This document shows positions 22,209 through 63,013 of a stretch of DNA of 64,000 nucleotides, piece after piece (position 1 is the stretch's first letter; each line of letters opens with the position of its first letter). The stretch is from Arthrobacter sp. CJ23 (GTDB lineage: Bacteria > Actinomycetota > Actinomycetes > Actinomycetales > Micrococcaceae), in contig NZ_CP102950.1 in assembly GCF_024741795.1 (NCBI RefSeq), forward strand, positions 3,906,001 through 3,970,000, in the 5' to 3' direction. Both the position numbers and the translations under genes were made by a program. The notes below the pieces were generated by a model. It did not search any database and was not told where the DNA came from. It saw only the letters and a list, made by a program, of their open reading frames with translations.

Positions 22209-23012
22209 CTATGCTGTGCGCGGAGAGTTGAAGGCCGACCAGATAGCGGACTTTAGTGCTACCACATCCACGTTGGACGGATCCACGACATGTACCTGCC
22301 AGCCACGCTCGGCGTACTGCTCTCGAAGGACCTCTGGCAGCCGCCGGGTGGTAATGAGGAGCCCTCCGACCATGTTCGTATCGTTTTGCCGGATGCGCTC
22401 CACATTTGTCAGGAGCGACGCCGGCAGCCTCCCGCTGCCGCGGGCCTCCAAGATCACGCGCTTGCCGCTGGCGTCCTGCAAAAGCCCATCCCCGAATTGA
22501 CCACCCGTCTGCGGATACAGCCGTAGGGCATCTTCTTCCGTGAGCAGCTCCACCCCTGGTGGGAGTGTCTTCCATACGTGATGGAGTATCTGGGCTTCAT
22601 TCAGCACGGCCCTCATCACGGGGCCGGCCGCCTCCGGGGAGATCCGCGAAAGGTCGTCGAGCAGAGCATCACGTTCGGCTGCCGGCAAGTCTTCAGCGTG
22701 ATCGGCGATCACGTCGCCGACCTCGGCGGCGGGCCACTCCACTTCCTTTCCCTCCCACTTGAGGCGGGGAAGCCGCCCTGCCAGAGCCACCAGCAGGAAG
22801 ATTGCCCCGACGACGAGAAGCGCAATAGGCCCCCAGTCTCTGCCAATCGTGAAGACTCCGGTGACGCCTGCGTAGAGGACAGTAAACCCAACGAGTCCGG
22901 CCACAAAGCGGGCAAAGCCGTGAAGCTTCGATGGGTCCGCGCGCTGCTGTCTTGATGGCCCTGGCCCTTTATCGCTCGCGCTCACGTCAGGTCGCGTTGT
23001 GGTTTCCGTCAT
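22209..23012 (-). CDS. Membrane protein with a nuclease-like C-terminal domain
   Basis: 267-residue protein that I do not recognise as a named family. After a polar N-terminus (1-45) there are two hydrophobic segments (about 50-70 and 76-95), then a helical linker (about 105-170). The C-terminal domain of about 110 residues reads FGDGLLQDASGKRVILEARG, then a conserved-looking GGLLITTRR. The spacing of Asp in GDGLL and Glu in ILEAR recalls PD-(D/E)xK restriction-fold nucleases, with Arg in place of the usual Lys. ATG 23012 fits better than the longer frame to 23162. It stands alone at the edge of an island with an AlbA_2 protein and a DUF262 operon, so a role in defence is plausible but inferred. 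Confidence 0.55.
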   Translation of the reverse strand: MTETTTRPDVSASDKGPGPSRQQRADPSKLHGFARFVAGLVGFTVLYAGVTGVFTIGRDWGPIALLVVGAIFLLVALAGRLPRLKWEGKEVEWPAAEVGDVIADHAEDLPAAERDALLDDLSRISPEAAGPVMRAVLNEAQILHHVWKTLPPGVELLTEEDALRLYPQTGGQFGDGLLQDASGKRVILEARGSGRLPASLLTNVERIRQNDTNMVGGLLITTRRLPEVLREQYAERGWQVHVVDPSNVDVVALKSAIWSAFNSPRTA

Positions 23013-23368
23013 GGTTGCTGCCTCCGGCCGGTTGTGGTTCCCGAAAGACCTTACCGGCACAGGCACAGGTAAGCATGAAGCAGAGAAACCAGACTCAACG
23101 TGGCGGACGCCGTCACGCGGTCGGCCCAGACCCAGGGACTTCGGGTTTGATGTCCACCCCAAAGCAGTAGGTCGACGAAAATCAGTACATCCGCGAGGTT
23201 ATCTTGCGGCTTTGGGTTCGTGTTCTTGAATCGCTGCGAGGTCGTCATCCGGGCAGGAGACATCGTTAGCAGCGCGTCCGTCGTCTGCGCATACGACGAG
23301 GAGGACTCGGATCACTGGTCCTTCGTCGGTTGTAACTGGCCAGCTCGGGGCTGTGCGGGTGCCACGGT

Positions 23369-25282: not shown

Positions 25283-26452
25283 ATGACCAGCAAAGCAGAC
25301 ACTCTCCCCGAAGAAGAGTGGTACGAGGGACAGCGTCTCGGCGTGGAGGTTGAAGACGAGGGGGAGATTGAGTTTGGCCTACAAGAAGGACCTAAGCCGT
25401 GGGATCCCGAAAAGATCCGCGTCACCACCAAGACTTTTTCGCTTCGGCATATCCTTGATATGATCGATAACCGCGATCTGGACCTCGCCCCCGACTTTCA
25501 AAGGAAGTTTGTTTGGCGGTCTAAGCAGAAGTCCCGTCTAATTGAGAGCCTCTTCCTCCAGATTCCAATGCCAGCGTTCTACTTCTCAGAGGACACTGAT
25601 GGTCTTCTTAGGGTTGTAGACGGCCTTCAGCGACTGACAACCATTCATTCATTTGCCCGTGGTGCAGGCTTTGTCTTGAAGGATCTTGAATACCTATCAG
25701 CACAAGAGGGCCTTCGCTTTGACGCCTTGCCGGCAGTGCTTCAAAGAAGGCTGCTGAATGCTCAAATTGTTGCAAATGTAATTGACCCTTCAACGCCAAG
25801 CGAAGTCAAGTATGACATTTTTGCTAGGATCAATACTGGTGGAGCACCGCTCAATGCCATGGAAATTCGTCATTGCATGAGCAAGGATCGAAGCCGCTCC
25901 TTCCTCAAGCGTTGCACGGAGAGCAACGCTTTTCGCGAAGCAACTGATAATGCACTCTACGATCACATCCGGATGCAGGATCGCGAGGCAGTATTGCGTT
26001 TCTGCGCTTTCCGCCTACTTGGCGACTTAGATAAGTATGAGAAGTTTGGTTCCCTGGAGCGCCTCCTCTCCTGGGCGAACGAGACGCTTGACGATCAAAA
26101 GTTGCTTTCCGACAGCGAACTCCAACGCCTCTTTGAAGACTTTGAACGAGCCATGGTTAATGCCAAGACAATTTTTGGACGGCACGCATTCAGAAAATGG
26201 CCACGAGGGGAGAGCCGCCTCAGCCCAATCAATCGCCCACTGCTGGAAAGCTGGGGAATGGTGCTGGCGGACCATGACCGGTCAGAGATCAAGGCAATGG
26301 CCCACCAGATTGCTTCAAGCGCACGGTCAAGAATGACAGATGACTACTCGTACTTGGAAAGCATTACGACATCCACCTCTCATCCAGGCCGAGTGCGCAC
26401 TCGCTTCGCTACGGCCCAGATGATTCTGGAAGAGGCCCTACGTGCTGAGTAG
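25283..26452 (+). CDS. DUF262 (ParB/GmrS-like NTPase) protein
   Basis: 389-residue protein consisting of the DUF262 domain, the ParB-like nucleotide-dependent fold found in GmrSD enzymes, without the HNH (DUF1524) nuclease that often follows. Motifs in order: APDFQRKFVW at 69-78, VVDGLQRLTTI at 111-121 (the catalytic DGQQR box with Leu for the first Gln) and IFARINTGGAPLNAMEIRHC at 179-198. The C-terminal half is helical and unrecognised. The start ATG 25283 is where homology begins; the longer frame upstream is arginine-rich and not protein-like. It overlaps the ATPase gene by 11 bp, making it the first gene of a three-gene operon of lower GC than the surroundings. DUF262 proteins commonly act in anti-phage systems. 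Confidence 0.85.
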   Translation: MTSKADTLPEEEWYEGQRLGVEVEDEGEIEFGLQEGPKPWDPEKIRVTTKTFSLRHILDMIDNRDLDLAPDFQRKFVWRSKQKSRLIESLFLQIPMPAFYFSEDTDGLLRVVDGLQRLTTIHSFARGAGFVLKDLEYLSAQEGLRFDALPAVLQRRLLNAQIVANVIDPSTPSEVKYDIFARINTGGAPLNAMEIRHCMSKDRSRSFLKRCTESNAFREATDNALYDHIRMQDREAVLRFCAFRLLGDLDKYEKFGSLERLLSWANETLDDQKLLSDSELQRLFEDFERAMVNAKTIFGRHAFRKWPRGESRLSPINRPLLESWGMVLADHDRSEIKAMAHQIASSARSRMTDDYSYLESITTSTSHPGRVRTRFATAQMILEEALRAE

Positions 26453-27515
26453 CCTTGAATTGCATGGTTTCAAACGGTTCTCTCACCTTGAACTTGCGTT
26501 GTCCCCACTTAGCGTTCTGAGCGGATTGAACGGCAGCGGTAAGAGCACAGTGCTGCAGTCACTGGTCTTGGCTCATCAGGCCAGCCTTAGCCCAGACTCC
26601 ACGGTCTCCTTATCCAGTGAAACCGGCCTAGATCTGGGCCATGCGGCTGACCTCCTCAATCACGAGAGCGCTTCCGGTGAGTTCTCAGTCAAAATAACGT
26701 CTGCAGTCCCATATGAATGGGTCTTTGACATCGGCCCCACAGGCGACGTCCCATACTTGAGCATCCTGAACCGGCCGCAGACCCCACCAGAAGTCTTCCA
26801 AGGCGCCGCATTCATACATTTGGCGGCAGAACGCATCGGTCCGCGAACAACCCATCCATCCGCCTATTTTCGGCCCGATGACGCCGTCGTCGGATTTGAC
26901 GGCCGCTATGCCGCTCATACGCTGGCGGTATGTGGCCGGAACGAGGTTCCCGCATCTCTGAGGCACGAGTCTGAGACGGAAGTTTGGACCCTTAGATCTC
27001 AGGTCGAGGCTTGGCTTAGCGACATGGTGGGACCCACTCAAGTAGAAGCCACTCTGGTACCCAAGACCAACCTCGTCACGCTCCGCATTAGGAAGCAAAA
27101 CTTCTCCTCAGAGTGGCTACTGCCCACGAATACCGGCTTTGGAGTCAGCTACTGCCTCCCGATCATTGTTGCTGGACTAACCTCGAAGCCTGGTGGAATC
27201 CTCATCGTGGACAGCCCCGAAGCCCATCTTCACCCGGCAGGACAGTCTGCGATAGGGCGCTTTCTGGCCACCGTGGCCGCCTCCGGGGTTCAGGTTCTCA
27301 TCGAGACACATAGCGACCATGTTATTAATGGAATTCGACGGCACGTCGCCAGTGGCGGAGAAACTAAAGCGAACAGCGTTCTTTTCCACTTTTTCGGAGA
27401 GATGGGGGTCGATTCCATAACAGTCGATGAGGGCGGGCGGCTCAGTCGGTGGCCGGAAGGTTTCTTCGACCAGATGGACAAGGATCTCTTCGCCATTACG
27501 ACGGCTCGCAAATGA
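26442..27515 (+). CDS. AAA ATPase with DUF3696-like C-terminus
   Basis: 357-residue SMC/OLD-type ATPase. Walker A is GLNGSGKST (28-36), Walker B is ILIVDSPEAHLHP (about 253-265) and the switch motif ETHSDH is at 288-293. The C-terminal WPEGFFDQ (336-343) is the DUF3696 hallmark. Between them lies an insert with AAERIGPRTTHPSAYF. The start is GTG 26442, inside the end of the DUF262 gene, so the proteins are probably made in fixed ratio and act together. ATPases of this kind act as sensors or as scaffold for nuclease partners in several defence systems such as Septu; this one has no nuclease domain of its own. It overlaps the third gene by 4 bp. Confidence 0.85.
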   Translation: MLSSLELHGFKRFSHLELALSPLSVLSGLNGSGKSTVLQSLVLAHQASLSPDSTVSLSSETGLDLGHAADLLNHESASGEFSVKITSAVPYEWVFDIGPTGDVPYLSILNRPQTPPEVFQGAAFIHLAAERIGPRTTHPSAYFRPDDAVVGFDGRYAAHTLAVCGRNEVPASLRHESETEVWTLRSQVEAWLSDMVGPTQVEATLVPKTNLVTLRIRKQNFSSEWLLPTNTGFGVSYCLPIIVAGLTSKPGGILIVDSPEAHLHPAGQSAIGRFLATVAASGVQVLIETHSDHVINGIRRHVASGGETKANSVLFHFFGEMGVDSITVDEGGRLSRWPEGFFDQMDKDLFAITTARK

Positions 27516-28456
27516 CCGATTCAATCATTGCCAACTACTTCGTCGATGAGAATGGATTCAAGTTTCACGACGATTCAGATGAGGTGATCAGTGAGGCGTT
27601 TACTGAATTTTCCAAAATCCTTGTCGAAGCAAAGAAGGGCGGCGGTGAAACATATCACACGGAATTAGTTTGGGGCGTTTGCACTTCTAGCGGAAGACGG
27701 CTCACAGATTTACTTTATGGACCTTCAGGGATAGACGCCGATGCCCGTAGATTGCTCTATGGATTGTTGCATAAATGCCAGAATCGGGAATCTCCCTCTC
27801 TTGCAGATGGAGTATTAGTCGGGGATGGCCTTGCCGAAACTGCTTCCACCGGAGCCATCCTTTGCGCACTGGACTTAGAGAATCAACAGCCAGCTGCTCT
27901 ACTGACAACTAACCAATCGTCCATCCGCGGCATCGCACTTATTCGCATCTCTCAAACCGAAGCTGAGCTTCAAGCTTCATACATTGCGGAGGTCAATGAC
28001 TTCAAATACTTCTGGCGACAGGTTCCGGAGATTTGCAATCTGCAGCCGCACGCAATCGAGACAGTGGCACAGCAGGCTTTTCCGGAATCGAATTTCATAG
28101 AAGGTGTCTGGTCTGGCGCCAAGGAATTCGAAGGAGAAATAGCTACCATTCGCGGCACACTCATTAGCCACCTTTCGGGGTTGGATGATCATTTTCTTTC
28201 CGTCTACGGCGAAACAAACGATCCGAACCGTATTGCTGCCGAAATGGGCTCACGGGCAGGAATTGACTGCTCCAAGGAAAGTAACAGGACGCGTCGCAAT
28301 AGCAAGGCTATGTCCTCCCGCGTCCGCTCGATTGGCTCGAAAGACCTCTCTTTCGAATGGCACACCAAGCTCGAAGCCCATAGAAATCGCATCCACTTCG
28401 CCGTTGACGATGGCAAGCTTTATATTGGGATATTCTGCAGGCATCTAGAAATCTAG
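27512..28456 (+). CDS. Unrecognised third protein of the DUF262-AAA operon
   Basis: 314-residue soluble protein without signal peptide or membrane segments. I do not recognise the family. ATG 27512 overlaps the ATPase stop by 4 bp. The C-terminal part looks conserved: SFEWHTKLEAHRNRIHF followed by GKLYIGIFCRHL, and the middle has NDFKYFWRQVPEIC. The Glu, His and Lys residues of EWHTKLEAHRNRIHF could form an active or binding site, but no known catalytic pattern is evident. The obligate linkage suggests it is the effector or specificity part of the system. GC is among the lowest in the window. A TCTAGA repeat follows the stop, and the gene converges on the ABC exporter with only 6 bp between. 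Confidence 0.6.
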   Translation: MTDSIIANYFVDENGFKFHDDSDEVISEAFTEFSKILVEAKKGGGETYHTELVWGVCTSSGRRLTDLLYGPSGIDADARRLLYGLLHKCQNRESPSLADGVLVGDGLAETASTGAILCALDLENQQPAALLTTNQSSIRGIALIRISQTEAELQASYIAEVNDFKYFWRQVPEICNLQPHAIETVAQQAFPESNFIEGVWSGAKEFEGEIATIRGTLISHLSGLDDHFLSVYGETNDPNRIAAEMGSRAGIDCSKESNRTRRNSKAMSSRVRSIGSKDLSFEWHTKLEAHRNRIHFAVDDGKLYIGIFCRHLEI

Positions 28457-28462
28457 AGCCCT

Positions 28463-30511
28463 CTAAACCTCCGCCACAGGCGCCGCGAACTGGGCCTCGT
28501 ACAGCCGCGCGTACGCCTCGCCCGCCTCCAGCAAGGAAGCGTGCGTTCCCTGCTCCACGATCTGCCCGGACTCCATCACCAGGATGAGATCGGCGTCGCG
28601 GATGGTGGACAGCCGGTGCGCGATCACAAAGGAAGTCCGGTCGGAGCGCAGGGCCCGCATCGCCTGCTGCACCAGCACCTCGGTGCGTGTATCCACTGAA
28701 GAAGTGGCCTCGTCCAGGATCAGCACCGACGGCCGGGACAGGAACGCCCGGGCGATCGTCAGCAGCTGCTTCTCGCCGGCGGACACATTGGAGCCTTCGT
28801 CCTCCAAAAGCGTGTCGTAGCCTTCGGGCAGGGAGTGCACAAAGCGGTCAACATAGGTGGCAGTAGCCGCCTCCAGGATTTCCGCCTCGGACGCATCGGG
28901 CCGGCCGTACGCGATGTTGTCCCGGATGGTCCCGCCGAACAGCCATGTGTCCTGCAGCACCATGCCCATCCGCGAGCGCAGCTCGTACCGCGACATGGTG
29001 GCGACGTCCACGCCGTCGAGCGTTATCCGCCCGGCGTCCAGCTCATAGAAGCGCATCATCAGGTTCACCAGGGTGGTCTTGCCCGCCCCGGTGGGCCCCA
29101 CGATCGCGATGGTCTGCCCCGGCTCCGCCACGAGGTTCAAATCCGAAATCAGCGGCTTGTCGGCCGAGTAGGAGAAGGAGATGTTCTCGAACACCAGCCG
29201 CCCCCGCCCGCCAACAGGAACAGCGGGAGGATCTGGATCAGCAGACTCCTCCGGGGTATCCAGCAGTTCGAACACCCGCTCCGCGGACGCCACGCCGGAC
29301 TGCAGCAGGTTGGCCATCGAGCCCAGCTGCGCGAGCGGCATGGTGAACTGGCGCGAGTACTGGATGAAGGCCTGCACGTCGCCCAGCTGCATCGCCCCGG
29401 ACGCCACCTGCAGGCCACCCACCACGGCGATCCCCACATAGACCAGGTTCCCGATGAACGTCATGGCCGGCATGATCAGCCCGGAAATGAACTGCGCGCC
29501 GAAGCTGGCGGCGAACAGCTCGGCGTTCTTCTGCCGGAACCGCTCCTCCACCTCGCGCTGCCGTCCGAACACCTTCACCAGCGCGTGCCCGGTGTAGGTC
29601 TCCTCGATCTGCCCGTTCAGCTCGCCAGTGTTCTTCCACTGCGCCACGAACAGCTTCTGCGAGCGCTTGGCGATCAGCGCCGTGGTCACCAGCGTCAGCG
29701 GCACCGTCACCAGCGCAAGCACCGCCAGCACGGGCGAGAGCAGGAACATCATCAGCAGCACGCCGGCCACGGTCAGCAGCGAGGTGACGGCCTGGCTGAT
29801 GGACTGCTGGAGGCTTTGCGAGATGTTGTCGACGTCGTTGGTCACCCGGCTGAGCAGCTCGCCGCGCTGCACCGAGTCGAAGTAGCGCAGCGGGAGGCGG
29901 TTGATCTTCGCCTCGATCTGCTCGCGCAGCCGGTACACGGTCCGCTGCACGACGCCGTTGAGGATGTACGCCTGCACCCAGCCGAACGCGGACGCCAGCA
30001 CATACAGCACCAGCACCCACAGGAGCACGGAGGACAGCGCCGCGAAGTCGATCCCGACGCCGGGGTTCAGGTCCATGGCGCTGAGCATGTCCGCTTTCGC
30101 GTTCTCGCCGGCGGCCCGCAGTCCCGCGATCACCTCGGCCTTGCCCACCCCGGCGGGCAGCTGTTTGGACACCACGCCGGCGAAGATCAGGTTGGTGCCC
30201 TCGCCCAGCAGCCGCGGGCCGATCACCGAGAACGTCACGCTCGCCACGGCCAGCACCAGGACCAGGGCCAGCCACAGCCGCTCGGGATGCAGGGTGCCCA
30301 GCAGCCTCTTGGCGGACGGCAGGAAGTTCATGGCCTTCTCAGCCGGGACGTTCATTCCGGCGAACGGTCCGCCGCGGCCCGGTCCGGCGGCCGGGCGGGG
30401 TATGCGCTCGACGACGGCGGTCCCGGTATTCGGGGCGGGTCCGGTTCCACCGCTGCTGCTTCCGCCCCTCCCGGGGGTAGCGCCCGACGGCGGGCGGTGC
30501 TGCCCGCTCAT
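28463..30511 (-). CDS. Heterodimeric ABC exporter, consensus-site subunit
   Basis: 682-residue half-transporter of the multidrug exporter type. A Gly/Pro/Ser-rich N-terminal tail (1-60) precedes six membrane segments (about 80-360) and a C-terminal nucleotide-binding domain with Walker A GPTGAGKTT, signature NVSAGEKQLLTIARA and Walker B VLILDEATSSVD, where the catalytic Glu is present. The start overlaps the stop of the partner gene by 4 bp. With its partner it should form one asymmetric exporter like LmrCD or TM287/288, where one ATP site hydrolyses and the other mostly binds. The operon begins with an MmyB-type regulator, consistent with drug- or signal-induced efflux. The cargo is not known. 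Confidence 0.92.
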   Translation of the reverse strand: MSGQHRPPSGATPGRGGSSSGGTGPAPNTGTAVVERIPRPAAGPGRGGPFAGMNVPAEKAMNFLPSAKRLLGTLHPERLWLALVLVLAVASVTFSVIGPRLLGEGTNLIFAGVVSKQLPAGVGKAEVIAGLRAAGENAKADMLSAMDLNPGVGIDFAALSSVLLWVLVLYVLASAFGWVQAYILNGVVQRTVYRLREQIEAKINRLPLRYFDSVQRGELLSRVTNDVDNISQSLQQSISQAVTSLLTVAGVLLMMFLLSPVLAVLALVTVPLTLVTTALIAKRSQKLFVAQWKNTGELNGQIEETYTGHALVKVFGRQREVEERFRQKNAELFAASFGAQFISGLIMPAMTFIGNLVYVGIAVVGGLQVASGAMQLGDVQAFIQYSRQFTMPLAQLGSMANLLQSGVASAERVFELLDTPEESADPDPPAVPVGGRGRLVFENISFSYSADKPLISDLNLVAEPGQTIAIVGPTGAGKTTLVNLMMRFYELDAGRITLDGVDVATMSRYELRSRMGMVLQDTWLFGGTIRDNIAYGRPDASEAEILEAATATYVDRFVHSLPEGYDTLLEDEGSNVSAGEKQLLTIARAFLSRPSVLILDEATSSVDTRTEVLVQQAMRALRSDRTSFVIAHRLSTIRDADLILVMESGQIVEQGTHASLLEAGEAYARLYEAQFAAPVAEV

Positions 30512-58172: not shown

Positions 58173-59297
58173 CTACAGGTAGATCGCAATCGGGATTACT
58201 TTCAAGACTGGTGGGACCAAACCCAATTTCAGCGATGCATCAAATTGGCCATCCTGCGTAAGCGCATCAAGTCGTTCCGTCAAGTCGTCGAGCATTGACT
58301 GCCGCATGCGGTTGAGGAACTTATTCCGGCTCAGAATTGACACCGGCTCCATGCTGATCTCGGCAATCTTGCCCAAGACCCTAAAGGTCCCGTCGAGTAT
58401 TCTGTCTTTGTCTTGATTCAAGAAATATTCCGTGTCACATATAGTCACTGCTGTTACTGACGATTTGTCAATCCCTCTGATGGTCCCGAAGTATTCACGC
58501 GTCGTTTCGTTTCTGAAGTCTTGACGGACCGCCACTGTCGCTGCAGCGGCAAGCTCAGCCTTGGAATCAGCTTCGATGCTCACCTTCATGGCAAATGCCT
58601 GCCGCGCTTCGTGCGATGAGTCAAAATCAAAAGCCTCAAGCGCATCCGTCTTGTGCCTGTGTTTGACTATGGCGGCAACGAGTTCCGGCGTGGCTAGATC
58701 GAGGATGCTGTTCACTTCGTTGGGCTCGAATGAAGCCGAGAACTCTACGAACACCCCCGACCTCAACTGGTCAAGGGTGTTCGCGCCCGCAACCTTGAAT
58801 ACGAGCCCACGTTCATCCAGGGCCGCTCGCACGTTATGTAGGTAATTCGCCTGAGTAAACAAGAACTTCTGGTGTTGGCGCTGCTCGTTCTTGTCCTCGG
58901 AGCCGCCTCTGGTCCTAGCCTCGGCATCGACGTGAGCAGAGGCATCCGGAATGAAGGGGAGCTTGAGACCGAATTTGGCACCACCGTTTATCCCCGCTTC
59001 GGTTGTTCGTTGCCGCATTCCGGCGTTGAAAGTCTCCGCAAACTCTTCCACAGGGAGACCAATTGCAAAGAGCTGTTGGAGCAAGGCTGAGACATACTCT
59101 GGATTCTGGTAGATGACAAGGCCAAAGACGTCATTTTCGTCAGGCAGAGGATGCGTCGCAAGCTCCTGCGCATAGCCGGAAACGGTTCGCCTTTGCACGT
59201 CCAATCTCTTTGCTATCTCGTCAAGGCTTAGCCCCTGCTTAAGCATTCGATCTGTTTGTCGAAGTCGTCCTTCGCGTGTGCCCTGAGCCCCGGTCAT
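58173..59297 (-). CDS. HTH-containing protein of unknown function (possibly DUF6414-like)
   Basis: 374-residue soluble protein. Residues 10-45 form a helix-turn-helix (MLKQGLSLDEIAKRLDVQRRTVSGY, cited in part). The rest is unassigned: YVSALLQQLFAIGLPVEEF near 70, a charged linker near 125-145, FVEFSASFEPNEVNSILDLATPELV near 190 (cited in part) and an Ala/Lys-rich helix near 240. The pattern of an N-terminal strand and a later SFEPNE-type segment recalls DUF6414 proteins of mobile and defence regions, but I am not sure. Lower GC than the genome. A promoter with TAGGAT 6 nt before the ATG suggests a leaderless transcript. Confidence 0.55.
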   Translation of the reverse strand: MTGAQGTREGRLRQTDRMLKQGLSLDEIAKRLDVQRRTVSGYAQELATHPLPDENDVFGLVIYQNPEYVSALLQQLFAIGLPVEEFAETFNAGMRQRTTEAGINGGAKFGLKLPFIPDASAHVDAEARTRGGSEDKNEQRQHQKFLFTQANYLHNVRAALDERGLVFKVAGANTLDQLRSGVFVEFSASFEPNEVNSILDLATPELVAAIVKHRHKTDALEAFDFDSSHEARQAFAMKVSIEADSKAELAAAATVAVRQDFRNETTREYFGTIRGIDKSSVTAVTICDTEYFLNQDKDRILDGTFRVLGKIAEISMEPVSILSRNKFLNRMRQSMLDDLTERLDALTQDGQFDASLKLGLVPPVLKVIPIAIYL

Positions 59298-59303
59298 TGA
59301 GTC

Positions 59304-59331
59304 ATCCTAGCTGATGCAGGTATCCGCACAA
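59304..59331 (-). promoter_or_regulatory. Leaderless-type promoter of the HTH-protein gene
   Basis: On the minus strand TTGTGC (59326-59331), a 16-bp spacer and TAGGAT (59304-59309) form a good -35/-10 pair. Only 6 nt separate the -10 box from the ATG at 59297, which places the transcription start at or next to the start codon. Confidence 0.5.
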
Positions 59332-59460
59332 ATGGGAGCCGCATCCACGCATCTCAGGCTATTGCCGCGGACTGCAAACCTACTCATGGCTCGTGCGATA
59401 GCTGGGATTTGAGGAGAAAGCCAAGCCCTCGGGTCTTTGATGGATCCGACATCTGCAGAC

Positions 59461-61872
59461 CTACATCCCGTCGATTGCTGGATGCATCGCCAGGCGCTTG
59501 AGAACTTCTCCAGCTGCTCTCCGCAACACTCGTGCTGGACGAAGGCTTGCAATGGACGACACTTCTTCAACAATCTGCTGGTCGTAGTTCCACCCTTGTT
59601 CTGCCGCCCGTTGCAGTCCATGAAGTGTCCGCAATGGAATCCGAATGCCGTCTGCCTGCAAGAGGGATAGTAGGCGTCGGCTGGCGATGGCGGTCATGCT
59701 GGACTGCGAACCCCCAATTTCGGCAAGGCCCTTGCCCGCCAATGCCCGGACTTCCGGCGATGCATCCGTTGTCAATTGAAGGAGCACGACCTGGCCCCAT
59801 TCCTCGTCATGGAAGGACTGAGCAACCATAGGAACAGCCAGGCATGCCGCGCTTCGACTCCGCTTGCTGCCCCCAGAAAGCTCAGTTATGGCGCCAACGG
59901 CTTCATCACGCTCAAGGCATCCCAATGCCGCCCCCAGTCGAATTGCTTCTGCAAAGTGGGGCAGCACTTCGTCTGCGAATGGATGGTCTCGGAATACTGA
60001 ATTGATGACATTGGACCAGTCTGAAACGAGATTCTTCCGGGCAGATTCGGGTAGCAGTTCAATGTGGTACGACATCCGATCAAGCGCGCCAGCTTTGAAA
60101 TACCCGTCGACGGCATCATCCGTCACCAAGTTCGTAACTCCGTTCCACACCTCGGGCACATCGAAACGCACCGCGAGACTCACGCCCAAAGAACCGGAAT
60201 CGTACCCCCCCACCGACATTCCACCTGTTCGGGAATCTCGCCGAACCGCTTCCATTGCCTCCAAGGCGGCGGCAACCGCTCGTTCCAACACTTGTGCCGG
60301 GACCGGTTCCGTCTCGGAATGATGATTCAGAATGTACGTCGCGACTTCAAGGTCAGACAACCCCTCATGTATTTGCTGAAGGGACGCACCGCCAATCACT
60401 GCAGCTTGCGCGGCAAGCTCTTTTGCCGTCCCGTCGTTGAGTCGCGCTTCGCCCCAAGTCCTCCATGCTTCCTTGGTCGAAGTTGAAACACTGTCCCAGT
60501 TAATTTCCTCTAGAAGGGCCTGAAGAGTGTTCTCCAGGATTCGGACATCTGGTGAGTCGCGCAGGATTTCGATGGCTTCGCAGGCTACGTGCTCATCGGC
60601 TCCGCTATCCGCAAGAAGCCTCGTTATGGCGCCCCATAATGCCCTTTCGTCCTGGAAGCTCCTCCGCTCAGTCGACCGCAAAAGACTGAACGCAGCGTCG
60701 AGTCCAAGACGAAGCTCAGTTTCGCCCAAGAAGTTGGCCGCCGAAGAGACTGTTATGAGATCTGATCCGGCAACTCTCGAAGGGAACGATGAGCGCCCGA
60801 CGATAACGCGAGCCTCTTCCGCCAACGCCTTGCTTGGCCCACGAGACTGAACGTTTTGTATTGCGACCTCCAAAGCCTCCCTGTCTTCGGTCAGGCGCAA
60901 GAGCCTCAGTGCATCTTGTACGGCAGATGCGTCGGTACCCTCGATGAGTAATCTTGCCTGTGCAAGCCCGAGTCGGCAGCGATGGATCTCATGTGGGTTC
61001 GCAGAAAGTTCAGCAGCAAGCAGGCTGCTCCACGCTGCGTGCAACGCTGGGTGGCCAGAAGACATAATCGCCTTCCTTGGCCGCGCACCCATTTCGTCCA
61101 AGTAACGCTGGTTTACGAGCTCCCGGTCTCTCTGCCCCGCTTGCGACAGGATCCGCGTGTCCGGCCACGAAATACGCGACCGCACCACATCGACCCATTT
61201 TTCCCCGTCGATATCCTCGATGATTGATTCCATCATCCTGAAATGGTTCCGAATCGCATCCAAAACATCTCGTTGCACGACACTCGAAGACCAAGTAACG
61301 CCCCTAGATACTTCGAAGGTTTCCCAGAGGCCAGAAGAAAGTTTGAAACCATTGAGATTGCTCAGAGTCCGCCGAACAGCATCGAAATCCCTCATCTCAT
61401 TTTCCCGAACAGCCAGTTGGATGAGCAGCGCTTTCCGCACTAGGCTCTGGCTCCTACTTTCCTCAAGGGAATCGGAATATCGAATCAAGTCCCTCAACCC
61501 ACTCACAGCTAGTTCAGGTTCGTCTAATTCAACTTGGGCAACACTAGCGAATATGGCGGCGGCTGCGCGAGCCCCGAAGGGAAGGGATACATCTTCGCTA
61601 AACTTCCACAAGAGTGCGGCACCTCGCCCGATGGTAGATTCCATCACTGACGTGTTTGCTGCCTCGACAAGTTGCAGTACCCAATCGGACGATTCAGGAG
61701 CCAAAACATCCCGATACCTCTCGTAATCGTCGGTGCGAAGTTGGCTAACCAGGCCAAGTAGCCCCGGACCATCCACCACTTCCCGGGAGAAGTTCGGATG
61801 CGGTGACACTGCCCACGGAGCCATAACGGCACATACCCAAGCTGGCTGAATTAGATGTCCCGTGCGTTCCAT
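59461..61872 (-). CDS. Large helical-repeat protein of unknown function
   Basis: 803-residue soluble protein, almost all alpha-helical, with HEAT-like pairs of helices (for example TDASPEVRALAGKGLAEIGG near 725 and SLRPARVLRRAAGEVLKRLA near 780). No catalytic motif is seen. The N-terminal 90 residues differ, with LIQPAWVCAVMAPWAVSPHPNFSREV (cited in part). ATG 61872 follows AGGAGG at 7 nt and overlaps the upstream gene by 22 bp, so it is the last gene of a three-gene operon. Such repeat proteins act as scaffolds or sensors. The lower GC and the genes around it suggest acquired DNA and a possible defence role. Confidence 0.6.
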   Translation of the reverse strand: MERTGHLIQPAWVCAVMAPWAVSPHPNFSREVVDGPGLLGLVSQLRTDDYERYRDVLAPESSDWVLQLVEAANTSVMESTIGRGAALLWKFSEDVSLPFGARAAAAIFASVAQVELDEPELAVSGLRDLIRYSDSLEESRSQSLVRKALLIQLAVRENEMRDFDAVRRTLSNLNGFKLSSGLWETFEVSRGVTWSSSVVQRDVLDAIRNHFRMMESIIEDIDGEKWVDVVRSRISWPDTRILSQAGQRDRELVNQRYLDEMGARPRKAIMSSGHPALHAAWSSLLAAELSANPHEIHRCRLGLAQARLLIEGTDASAVQDALRLLRLTEDREALEVAIQNVQSRGPSKALAEEARVIVGRSSFPSRVAGSDLITVSSAANFLGETELRLGLDAAFSLLRSTERRSFQDERALWGAITRLLADSGADEHVACEAIEILRDSPDVRILENTLQALLEEINWDSVSTSTKEAWRTWGEARLNDGTAKELAAQAAVIGGASLQQIHEGLSDLEVATYILNHHSETEPVPAQVLERAVAAALEAMEAVRRDSRTGGMSVGGYDSGSLGVSLAVRFDVPEVWNGVTNLVTDDAVDGYFKAGALDRMSYHIELLPESARKNLVSDWSNVINSVFRDHPFADEVLPHFAEAIRLGAALGCLERDEAVGAITELSGGSKRSRSAACLAVPMVAQSFHDEEWGQVVLLQLTTDASPEVRALAGKGLAEIGGSQSSMTAIASRRLLSLLQADGIRIPLRTLHGLQRAAEQGWNYDQQIVEEVSSIASLRPARVLRRAAGEVLKRLAMHPAIDGM

Positions 61873-62384
61873 CCGCCGGCCTCCTCATAAAGGGATTTTT
61901 CGAATACCTGCTTTTGTTCGGAAGGCAGAGCCATCCCATGCTCAATCATTGTCTGCAGAATCAGGTTCTCAACTTGCGTTCTAAGACTATCGATGGTGTA
62001 TACGCGCAAAATGTGGCGCTGCTTACCAATGTCACCAAGAGTCTGATTTGCAAGAGTTTGAACTTGCTTCTCAGAAACTTTTGGAAAGGCTGCCCTATCG
62101 CATGAGACGAGAACTATTCGCGAATTCTGGGAAGGCGGCCAATTTTGTAATGAATTCCCTATTGAACCGTCTTTAGCGATCTTCTTGTGCCAATTGGCTT
62201 CGTAGGCCAAGAAGTGAACATCAGATTCAACATCGTCCTTGTCGGAGAACTCCCGAATCGGCGTAGTGGGATTATTCAATCGGGAAACGGTATCACGCCA
62301 AACTGCTTCCCATCTGGGATTCATAGTCAGTAACGGAATCCATCTGACAACCAGCGCCTCCGGAGCGTAGCCTCCAGAATTCAA
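61851..62384 (-). CDS. Unknown protein, middle gene of the helical-repeat operon
   Basis: 177-residue soluble protein, not recognised. The start is TTG 62384, overlapping the previous stop by 4 bp; an ATG 20 codons in lacks a ribosome site. Features: WRDTVSRLNNPTTPIREF, then FLAYEANWHKKIAKDGSIG and a hydrophobic strand SRIVLVSCDRAAFP followed by long helices. The Asp/Glu-rich DKDDVESDVHFLAYEANWHKK patch could be an active site, but no family pattern is evident. Its tight coupling on both sides says it works with the membrane protein and the repeat protein. Confidence 0.55.
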   Translation of the reverse strand: MNSGGYAPEALVVRWIPLLTMNPRWEAVWRDTVSRLNNPTTPIREFSDKDDVESDVHFLAYEANWHKKIAKDGSIGNSLQNWPPSQNSRIVLVSCDRAAFPKVSEKQVQTLANQTLGDIGKQRHILRVYTIDSLRTQVENLILQTMIEHGMALPSEQKQVFEKSLYEEAGGWNARDI

Positions 62385-63013
62385 TCTTTCGACTCCGGAA
62401 GTTCTACAATCATCGCTTTCGTTCGATCGACATAAATCGTGACTGCCTCAGATCGCTCGGAATTTCCACAATCCGTCGGAGCCACACGGAAAGGAACAAG
62501 ATCAGAGGCTCCCCTGAGATTTCCTAGCGCGACAACGGCATTGAACGATTTGCCTATCGCAGGGCACTCCGCAAGCCTCGGGGCATCATTCCCAAGTTCC
62601 ACTACTACATCCCTACCCGCATCGGGAGTGAGTATGTTCAATGGTGGAACAGCTAAGAGGGCAGCAGCGGCCAGAGCGCCAGACACGGATCCCCACGTCG
62701 TAATCAAGCGGATTTTGTCTACGATGACAGTCGCGAAATCTGACGTAGACCCCTTTCCCACGGGCTTGGCATATAGGGAAGCCCACAGATAGAGGCAGCT
62801 GCTAATTACGAAAAGCACCCACGAAACGTACGCGGAGGACTGCGCGGACACCGATAAGTCATTCTTGATCGATGAGAATAGCAGTCCTGCGGTAAGCGCC
62901 CCCGTTGCAGTCGCCAAGAGTGTCGCCGCTGAGCGGGAACGGTCACGGTACCGCTCAGCCGTTGAAGGACTCCCACCACCCGTTGATTCTTGCTGCTGTC
63001 CAGTCGACCCCAT
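62381..63013 (-). CDS. Membrane protein, first gene of the helical-repeat operon
   Basis: 210-residue membrane protein. The polar N-terminus (1-28) precedes three or four hydrophobic segments (about 30-48, 58-80 and 102-125); a soluble C-terminal domain of about 85 residues follows, with DVVVELGNDAPRLAECP and VTIYVDRTKAMIVELPES. Two Cys in the C-domain may pair if it lies outside. No named family. It begins the operon 62381-59461. A membrane protein coupled to a soluble sensor and scaffold is a common build of abortive-infection systems, but nothing here proves that. Confidence 0.55.
   Translation of the reverse strand: MGSTGQQQESTGGGSPSTAERYRDRSRSAATLLATATGALTAGLLFSSIKNDLSVSAQSSAYVSWVLFVISSCLYLWASLYAKPVGKGSTSDFATVIVDKIRLITTWGSVSGALAAAALLAVPPLNILTPDAGRDVVVELGNDAPRLAECPAIGKSFNAVVALGNLRGASDLVPFRVAPTDCGNSERSEAVTIYVDRTKAMIVELPESKD

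Follow-up and report, generated by a model that had tools for sequence, protein, structure and literature searches.

Several described systems combine a DUF262 domain with a DUF1524 nuclease, as in GmrSD, BrxU and SspE. According to a review (PMC10952713), which cites Millman et al. 2022 for the system, Menshen contains a DUF262 gene unaccompanied by DUF1524, its partner is predicted to be of the OLD type, and phage resistance was lost when the DUF262 gene was mutated or deleted. Here we describe three adjoining genes in a stretch of 64,000 nucleotides from Arthrobacter sp. CJ23 (GCF_024741795.1, contig NZ_CP102950.1, positions 3,906,001-3,970,000 of the forward strand), which is called the window and whose positions are used as coordinates below. 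The genes span 25283..28456 and almost certainly constitute a chromosomal Menshen (nsnABC) anti-phage system. A paper dedicated to Menshen has reportedly been published by Li et al. in 2025.

Identity of the operon

All three products were called by PADLOC as NsnA, NsnB and NsnC in the order of the genes, and we take these symbols to be the three components of Menshen. Gene 1 matches NsnA PDLC03877 (1.8e-117, residues 16-386 of 389), gene 2 matches NsnB PDLC03878 (7.7e-100, residues 1-352 of 357) and gene 3 matches NsnC PDLC03914 (6.9e-64, residues 9-314 of 314). The initial annotation had offered the trio as a candidate anti-phage system that it could not name. The match to a named defence system argues for the anti-phage role and rules out an unnamed system, and the claim to novelty fails by the rule of that annotation itself. 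The finding is a known system, correctly located, and the remaining interest lies in NsnC. The genes and the motifs read in their sequences are as follows.

25283..26452, + strand: nsnA, 389 amino acids, start ATG; DUF262 (GmrSD_N, ParB/Srx-type nucleoside triphosphatase (NTPase) fold) without DUF1524/HNH
25619..25633, + strand: DGLQR motif in NsnA, corresponding to the (I/V)DGQQR motif of the GmrS nucleoside triphosphate (NTP) pocket
26442..27515, + strand: nsnB, 357 amino acids, start GTG; AAA_15/AAA_21 ATPase with C-terminal DUF3696
26523..26549, + strand: Walker A motif GLNGSGKST of NsnB, residues 28-36
27210..27236, + strand: Walker B region of NsnB, DSPEAHLHP, starting at residue 257
27512..28456, + strand: nsnC, 314 amino acids, start ATG; third protein of the assigned Menshen system

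The three genes are co-directional in the order nsnA-nsnB-nsnC, where nsnA and nsnB overlap by 11 base pairs and nsnB and nsnC by 4 base pairs (ATGA). These coordinates agree with the earlier description of a single operon. The descriptions of gene 1 as a DUF262 protein without an HNH nuclease and of gene 2 as an ATPase without a recognised nuclease domain also hold, as set out next.

GmrSD_N/DUF262 (PF03235, 5.1e-26) was the sole Pfam match of NsnA at E values up to 10, with no match to DUF1524/HNH. On the same search, the DUF1524 (His-Me finger) nuclease by which type IV GmrSD systems are recognised was found neither in NsnA nor in NsnC. NsnA shares with GmrSD, BrxU and SspE a DUF262 domain with the DG(L/Q)QR motif, described for GmrS in the review (PMC10952713), but it differs from them in lacking the DUF1524 nuclease and in having two further genes as partners. 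The review's account of a DUF262 protein without DUF1524 in Menshen fits the identity of the trio (PMC10952713). NsnA also matches PD-T4-2_A at 2.7e-36, which is far weaker than its match to the NsnA model, and no PD-T4-2 partner was found among the PADLOC matches listed for gene 3 or among the best 25 of 139 for gene 2.

NsnB has 14 matches in Pfam at E values up to 10, which include AAA_15 (6.3e-19), AAA_21 (2.5e-16) and DUF3696 (PF12476, 1.1e-10), the last forming the C terminus, and no TOPRIM family was found among them. The PADLOC NsnB model (345 positions) is matched over nearly its full length without TOPRIM. This distinguishes NsnB from OLD and Gabija GajA, which are recognised by a C-terminal TOPRIM domain, and from the Menshen ATPase as described in the review, which calls it a predicted OLD nuclease (PMC10952713). 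The window operon has the same NsnA-NsnB-NsnC order as Menshen in PADLOC but differs in its third protein, which belongs to the PDLC03914 subfamily and matches PDLC03879, the model numbered next to those of NsnA and NsnB, only at 2.8e-5.

NsnB nevertheless resembles ATPases of the OLD/PtuA type, which is in keeping with direct restriction. NsnA would then sense modified or foreign DNA like GmrSD or BrxU, NsnB would bind DNA as an OLD-like ATPase, and phage DNA would be cut by NsnA or NsnC through a nuclease that has escaped recognition. The DUF262 proteins of GmrSD, BrxU and SspE work with nucleases on DNA and the review suggests the same for Menshen (PMC10952713), but in a Pfam search at E values up to 10 neither NsnA nor NsnB showed a nuclease domain, whether DUF1524, TOPRIM or another. 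We consider direct restriction unlikely.

Conservation and linkage of the three genes

A class survey of 296 genomes was made with the NsnB and NsnA models at E <=1e-40 and with the window NsnC subfamily at E <=1e-5, and matches were observed in 20, 29 and five genomes respectively. Twenty-one of the 22 NsnB places were examined (20 fetched loci and the window, the place in G215 being left out). An NsnA-like gene lies directly upstream of nsnB in ten of them, which are exactly those with an NsnB match of E <=3.0e-93. The other eleven (E >=4.0e-64) have no NsnA-like gene upstream among open reading frames (ORFs) of at least 100 amino acids and probably encode other DUF3696 ATPases.

In all ten NsnA-NsnB loci, window included, an NsnC-type gene comes third in the same order. 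Five of the NsnC proteins belong to the window subfamily, the one in G176 being interrupted by TGA, and four were read directly (L025, L027, L028 and L029), while that of L026 had been missed by the ORF filter. The contigs of L026 and of L161, where NsnC is present behind NsnA and NsnB, are each 772,272 bases long. The other NsnC subfamily was searched with one peptide pattern, which gave 42 loci. NsnA and NsnB lie directly upstream in the same order in 35 of these, including L189, which has NsnC fragments only; of the remaining seven, L187 has 157 bases upstream and six give partial NsnC matches only. The survey of trio conservation proposed in the initial annotation has in this way linked the third gene to DUF262-AAA pairs in both sets of loci. 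Furthermore, NsnB homologues (E <=1e-30) were found on 20 of 72,556 plasmid records, with DUF3696 and DUF262 annotated under the match in 11 of the 20. As an example, the Methylobacterium plasmid pMaqPC3 carries DUF262, DUF3696 and a hypothetical protein in that order, with a Mu-type transposase and a recombinase nearby.

Broken copies of NsnC were also noticed. In L048 (G176:C166:49331-50242), NsnC is interrupted by an in-frame TGA whereas the nsnA and nsnB frames ahead of it have no inner stops. Together with the partial matches at L189 and at the six unlinked loci, this copy is what speaks for a decayed or repurposed operon that has no defence function in CJ23. In the window, however, all three frames are open and overlapping, the models are matched nearly from end to end, and the Walker A, Walker B and DGLQR motifs are present, and we regard decay in CJ23 as very improbable. 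At L183, L184, L188 and L190, isolated C-terminal (RelE-type) NsnC fragments were observed, and neither NsnA nor NsnB was matched within the fetched loci; the fragments are probably remnants.

Predicted domains and possible role of NsnC

NsnC has no family in Pfam (E up to 10) or NCBIfam, so that the earlier statement that the third gene lacks a known family stands for these two databases and falls for PADLOC. Proteins of the PDLC03914 and PDLC03879 types are homologous by profile comparison. A sequence search of the PDB found nothing for NsnC at E up to 10, and a profile of 89 NsnC sequences gave one match at chance level (E 0.19). Nothing significant was found among viral proteins by fold (best E 0.11), and none of 51 pattern matches in viral contigs was confirmed as an NsnC-like gene. 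The AlphaFold2 model of NsnC (predicted local distance difference test 86.1, predicted template modelling score 0.86) contains two domains.

27524..28006, + strand: NsnC N-terminal domain, residues 5-165; predicted alpha/beta, weakly PIN-like
28079..28456, + strand: NsnC C-terminal domain, residues 190-314; predicted RelE/YoeB-like fold with conserved E244, H284, K286, R293, H295 and H311

The predicted structure has the features of a RelE-type fold in the C-terminal domain and suggests that this domain is built like the RNA-cutting toxins of the RelE family. It resembles the RelE/YoeB/ParE toxin superfamily in predicted fold but differs in being fused behind another domain within a three-gene defence operon and in showing no convincing similarity by sequence profile. 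Among the residues with at least 75% conservation in each of the two NsnC subfamilies are E244, R248, H284, R293, H295 and F296 (window numbering). YoeB uses Glu46 as general base and His83 as general acid, and a role in stabilising the transition state is ascribed to Arg59 and Arg65 (PMC3814384). In an overlay by eye on the final strands of L104, a YoeB relative, K286 fell on Arg59, R293 on Arg65 and H311 on His83, with E244 lying within the Glu46 segment; the counterparts in the Frankia-type NsnC are R281, R288, K308 and E256. The conserved charged residues look like a possible active site. A conserved acidic PIN active site was not found in the N-terminal domain, where D12, the Asp that follows strand 1, is replaced by Asn in at least 90% of the other subfamily.

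We tentatively favour, at somewhat less than an even chance for the statement as a whole, a Menshen system in which NsnC is the effector. An NTP-driven part for both sensing and switching would be formed by NsnA, a DUF262 protein with an NTP-binding fold of the ParB/Srx type, together with the AAA/DUF3696 ATPase NsnB, and the alpha/beta N-terminal domain of NsnC would dock on NsnB or be restrained by it. Once infection is sensed, NsnC would be released or activated and its RelE/YoeB-type domain would cleave RNA, probably on the ribosome, which in turn would stop translation and phage growth. We infer abortive infection as the outcome.

Several observations weigh against NsnC as an RNA-cutting effector. 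The fold is a predicted one, and Foldseek gave no match at E <=0.001 for either NsnC model. In an hhalign comparison of NsnC domains with an alignment of 18 YoeB proteins and 40 decoys, the window-type C-terminal domain scored 18.2, which one of the 40 decoys reached, and the other-type domain scored 12.6, which was reached by 19 of 40. The window-type N-terminal domain also scored 18.2 against YoeB, with none of the 40 decoys reaching it. The score of the C-terminal domain is not specific because the N-terminal domain scored equally high, and proof of a YoeB or PIN relationship by sequence profile failed in this decoy comparison. RelE-type folds also include proteins that are not ribonucleases (RNases), such as ParE. 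In addition, the His83/H311 position is Lys in the other NsnC subfamily; this is not fatal because RelE, which has neither the His nor the Glu, cleaves by another mechanism (PMC3814384).

NsnC is moreover the fastest-diverging component of Menshen, which would equally suit a sensor, and the main rival is built on this point. The variable N-terminal and RelE-type domains of NsnC would bind to stalled ribosomes or to a product of the phage, and NsnB would pass the signal on to the effector, which would be NsnA with its DUF262 NTPase and its uncharacterised C-terminal half. Sensors engaged in arms races diverge fast, and NsnC was found in the fewest genomes of the class survey even at its more permissive threshold. 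Seven PADLOC NsnC models also appear among the matches listed for six NsnC proteins, as against one NsnA and one NsnB model (the best 25 matches in the case of NsnB). The dedicated Menshen paper may also argue for NsnC as the sensor. However, the conserved charged set in the RelE-type domain resembles an active site, and NsnA has no recognised nuclease domain in Pfam. We hold the sensor role to be possible but less probable than the effector role.

Under the effector reading, Menshen might resemble a toxin-antitoxin system with two NTPases in place of the antitoxin. NsnA and NsnB would keep the RelE/YoeB-type RNase domain of NsnC in check until infection is sensed and then let it act on RNA bound to the ribosome, with the N-terminal domain of NsnC as the coupling element. 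We consider this more specific proposal less likely than not.

The chromosomal slot and neighbouring genes

The operon lies between genes named metH and exporter, both named by eye without a family search. Six bases lie between the nsnC stop codon, whose last base is 28456, and the exporter gene of the opposite strand, which ends at 28463. The guanine plus cytosine (GC) fraction is 0.521 in nsnA, 0.564 in nsnB and 0.495 in nsnC, against 0.677 in metH and 0.673-0.676 in two exporter genes, and at third codon positions it is 0.52-0.61 in the trio against 0.89-0.92 in metH and the two exporter genes. The foreign composition noted in the initial annotation is evident from these values, and its neighbouring AlbA_2 protein was recovered as well (PF04326, 2.6e-9).

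The operon is rare within the genus. Window-type NsnC is absent from 36 other same-genus genomes, and the only other NsnC match among 59 genomes, in G050, is weak and partial (1.3e-4, residues 7-96). Exporter homologues are present in all 61 genus genomes, own genome included, and the site was fetched (14 kilobases) in 20 of the other 60. None of nsnA, nsnB, nsnC, the AlbA_2 gene or the gene at 22209-23162 was found at these 20 sites (tblastn, E <=1e-10, identity >40%). AlbA_2 and the 22209-23162 gene were also not found in 51 loci around nsnB/nsnC homologues or in the 20 same-genus loci at E <=1e-4; AlbA_2 therefore seems to lie outside the unit, and neither gene is supported as an extra component. 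By eye, the product of 22209-23162 (- strand) resembles a membrane protein in its N-terminal part and a restriction endonuclease in its C-terminal half, with no Pfam match above the cut-off.

The genes beside the exporter were observed to vary from strain to strain at the 20 sites. L099 carries an AIPR/AbiU protein (PF10592 5.5e-47, PADLOC AbiU 6.3e-124). In L092, a protein with weak TIR similarity (0.0043, which does not pass the family cut-off) is followed by a PIN_8 protein (8.8e-60) that has no PADLOC family. L100 has an HSDR_N protein (1.2e-11), with similar ORFs seen by eye in L090, L096, L097 and L098, while other strains have genes that look metabolic or transport-related. The pattern is compatible with a variable slot in which defence genes are found at times. 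Within the fetched 20 loci, metH is complete in L092, partial in L099 and represented by a 57%-identical piece in L093; since it is complete in only one, the claim of variability is limited to the slot beside the exporter.

Two further regions were noticed in the same genome. About 1.2 megabases away, L191 (G000:C1:2745000-2758500) has a second DUF262 gene (NsnA model, 6.6e-46) adjoining a Gabija pair (GajA 8.2e-210, GajB 1.7e-204), a second defence cluster that also includes a cytosine methylase gene and a gene whose product weakly matches a type II restriction enzyme (7.2e-7). In the window, a second low-GC block (about 0.52-0.57) at 58173-63013 on the - strand encodes a DUF6414 protein with a helix-turn-helix, together with an ORF of 803 amino acids and two smaller ones that have no Pfam match at E 0.01; the 803-residue ORF has no PADLOC match.

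Naming the operon removes the claim of a new system, and the window contributes a further example of Menshen with a PDLC03914-type NsnC. If the C-terminal domain of NsnC is a RelE-type RNase, Menshen would join the defence systems that attack translation, and NsnC, a protein without a Pfam family, becomes a testable hypothesis.
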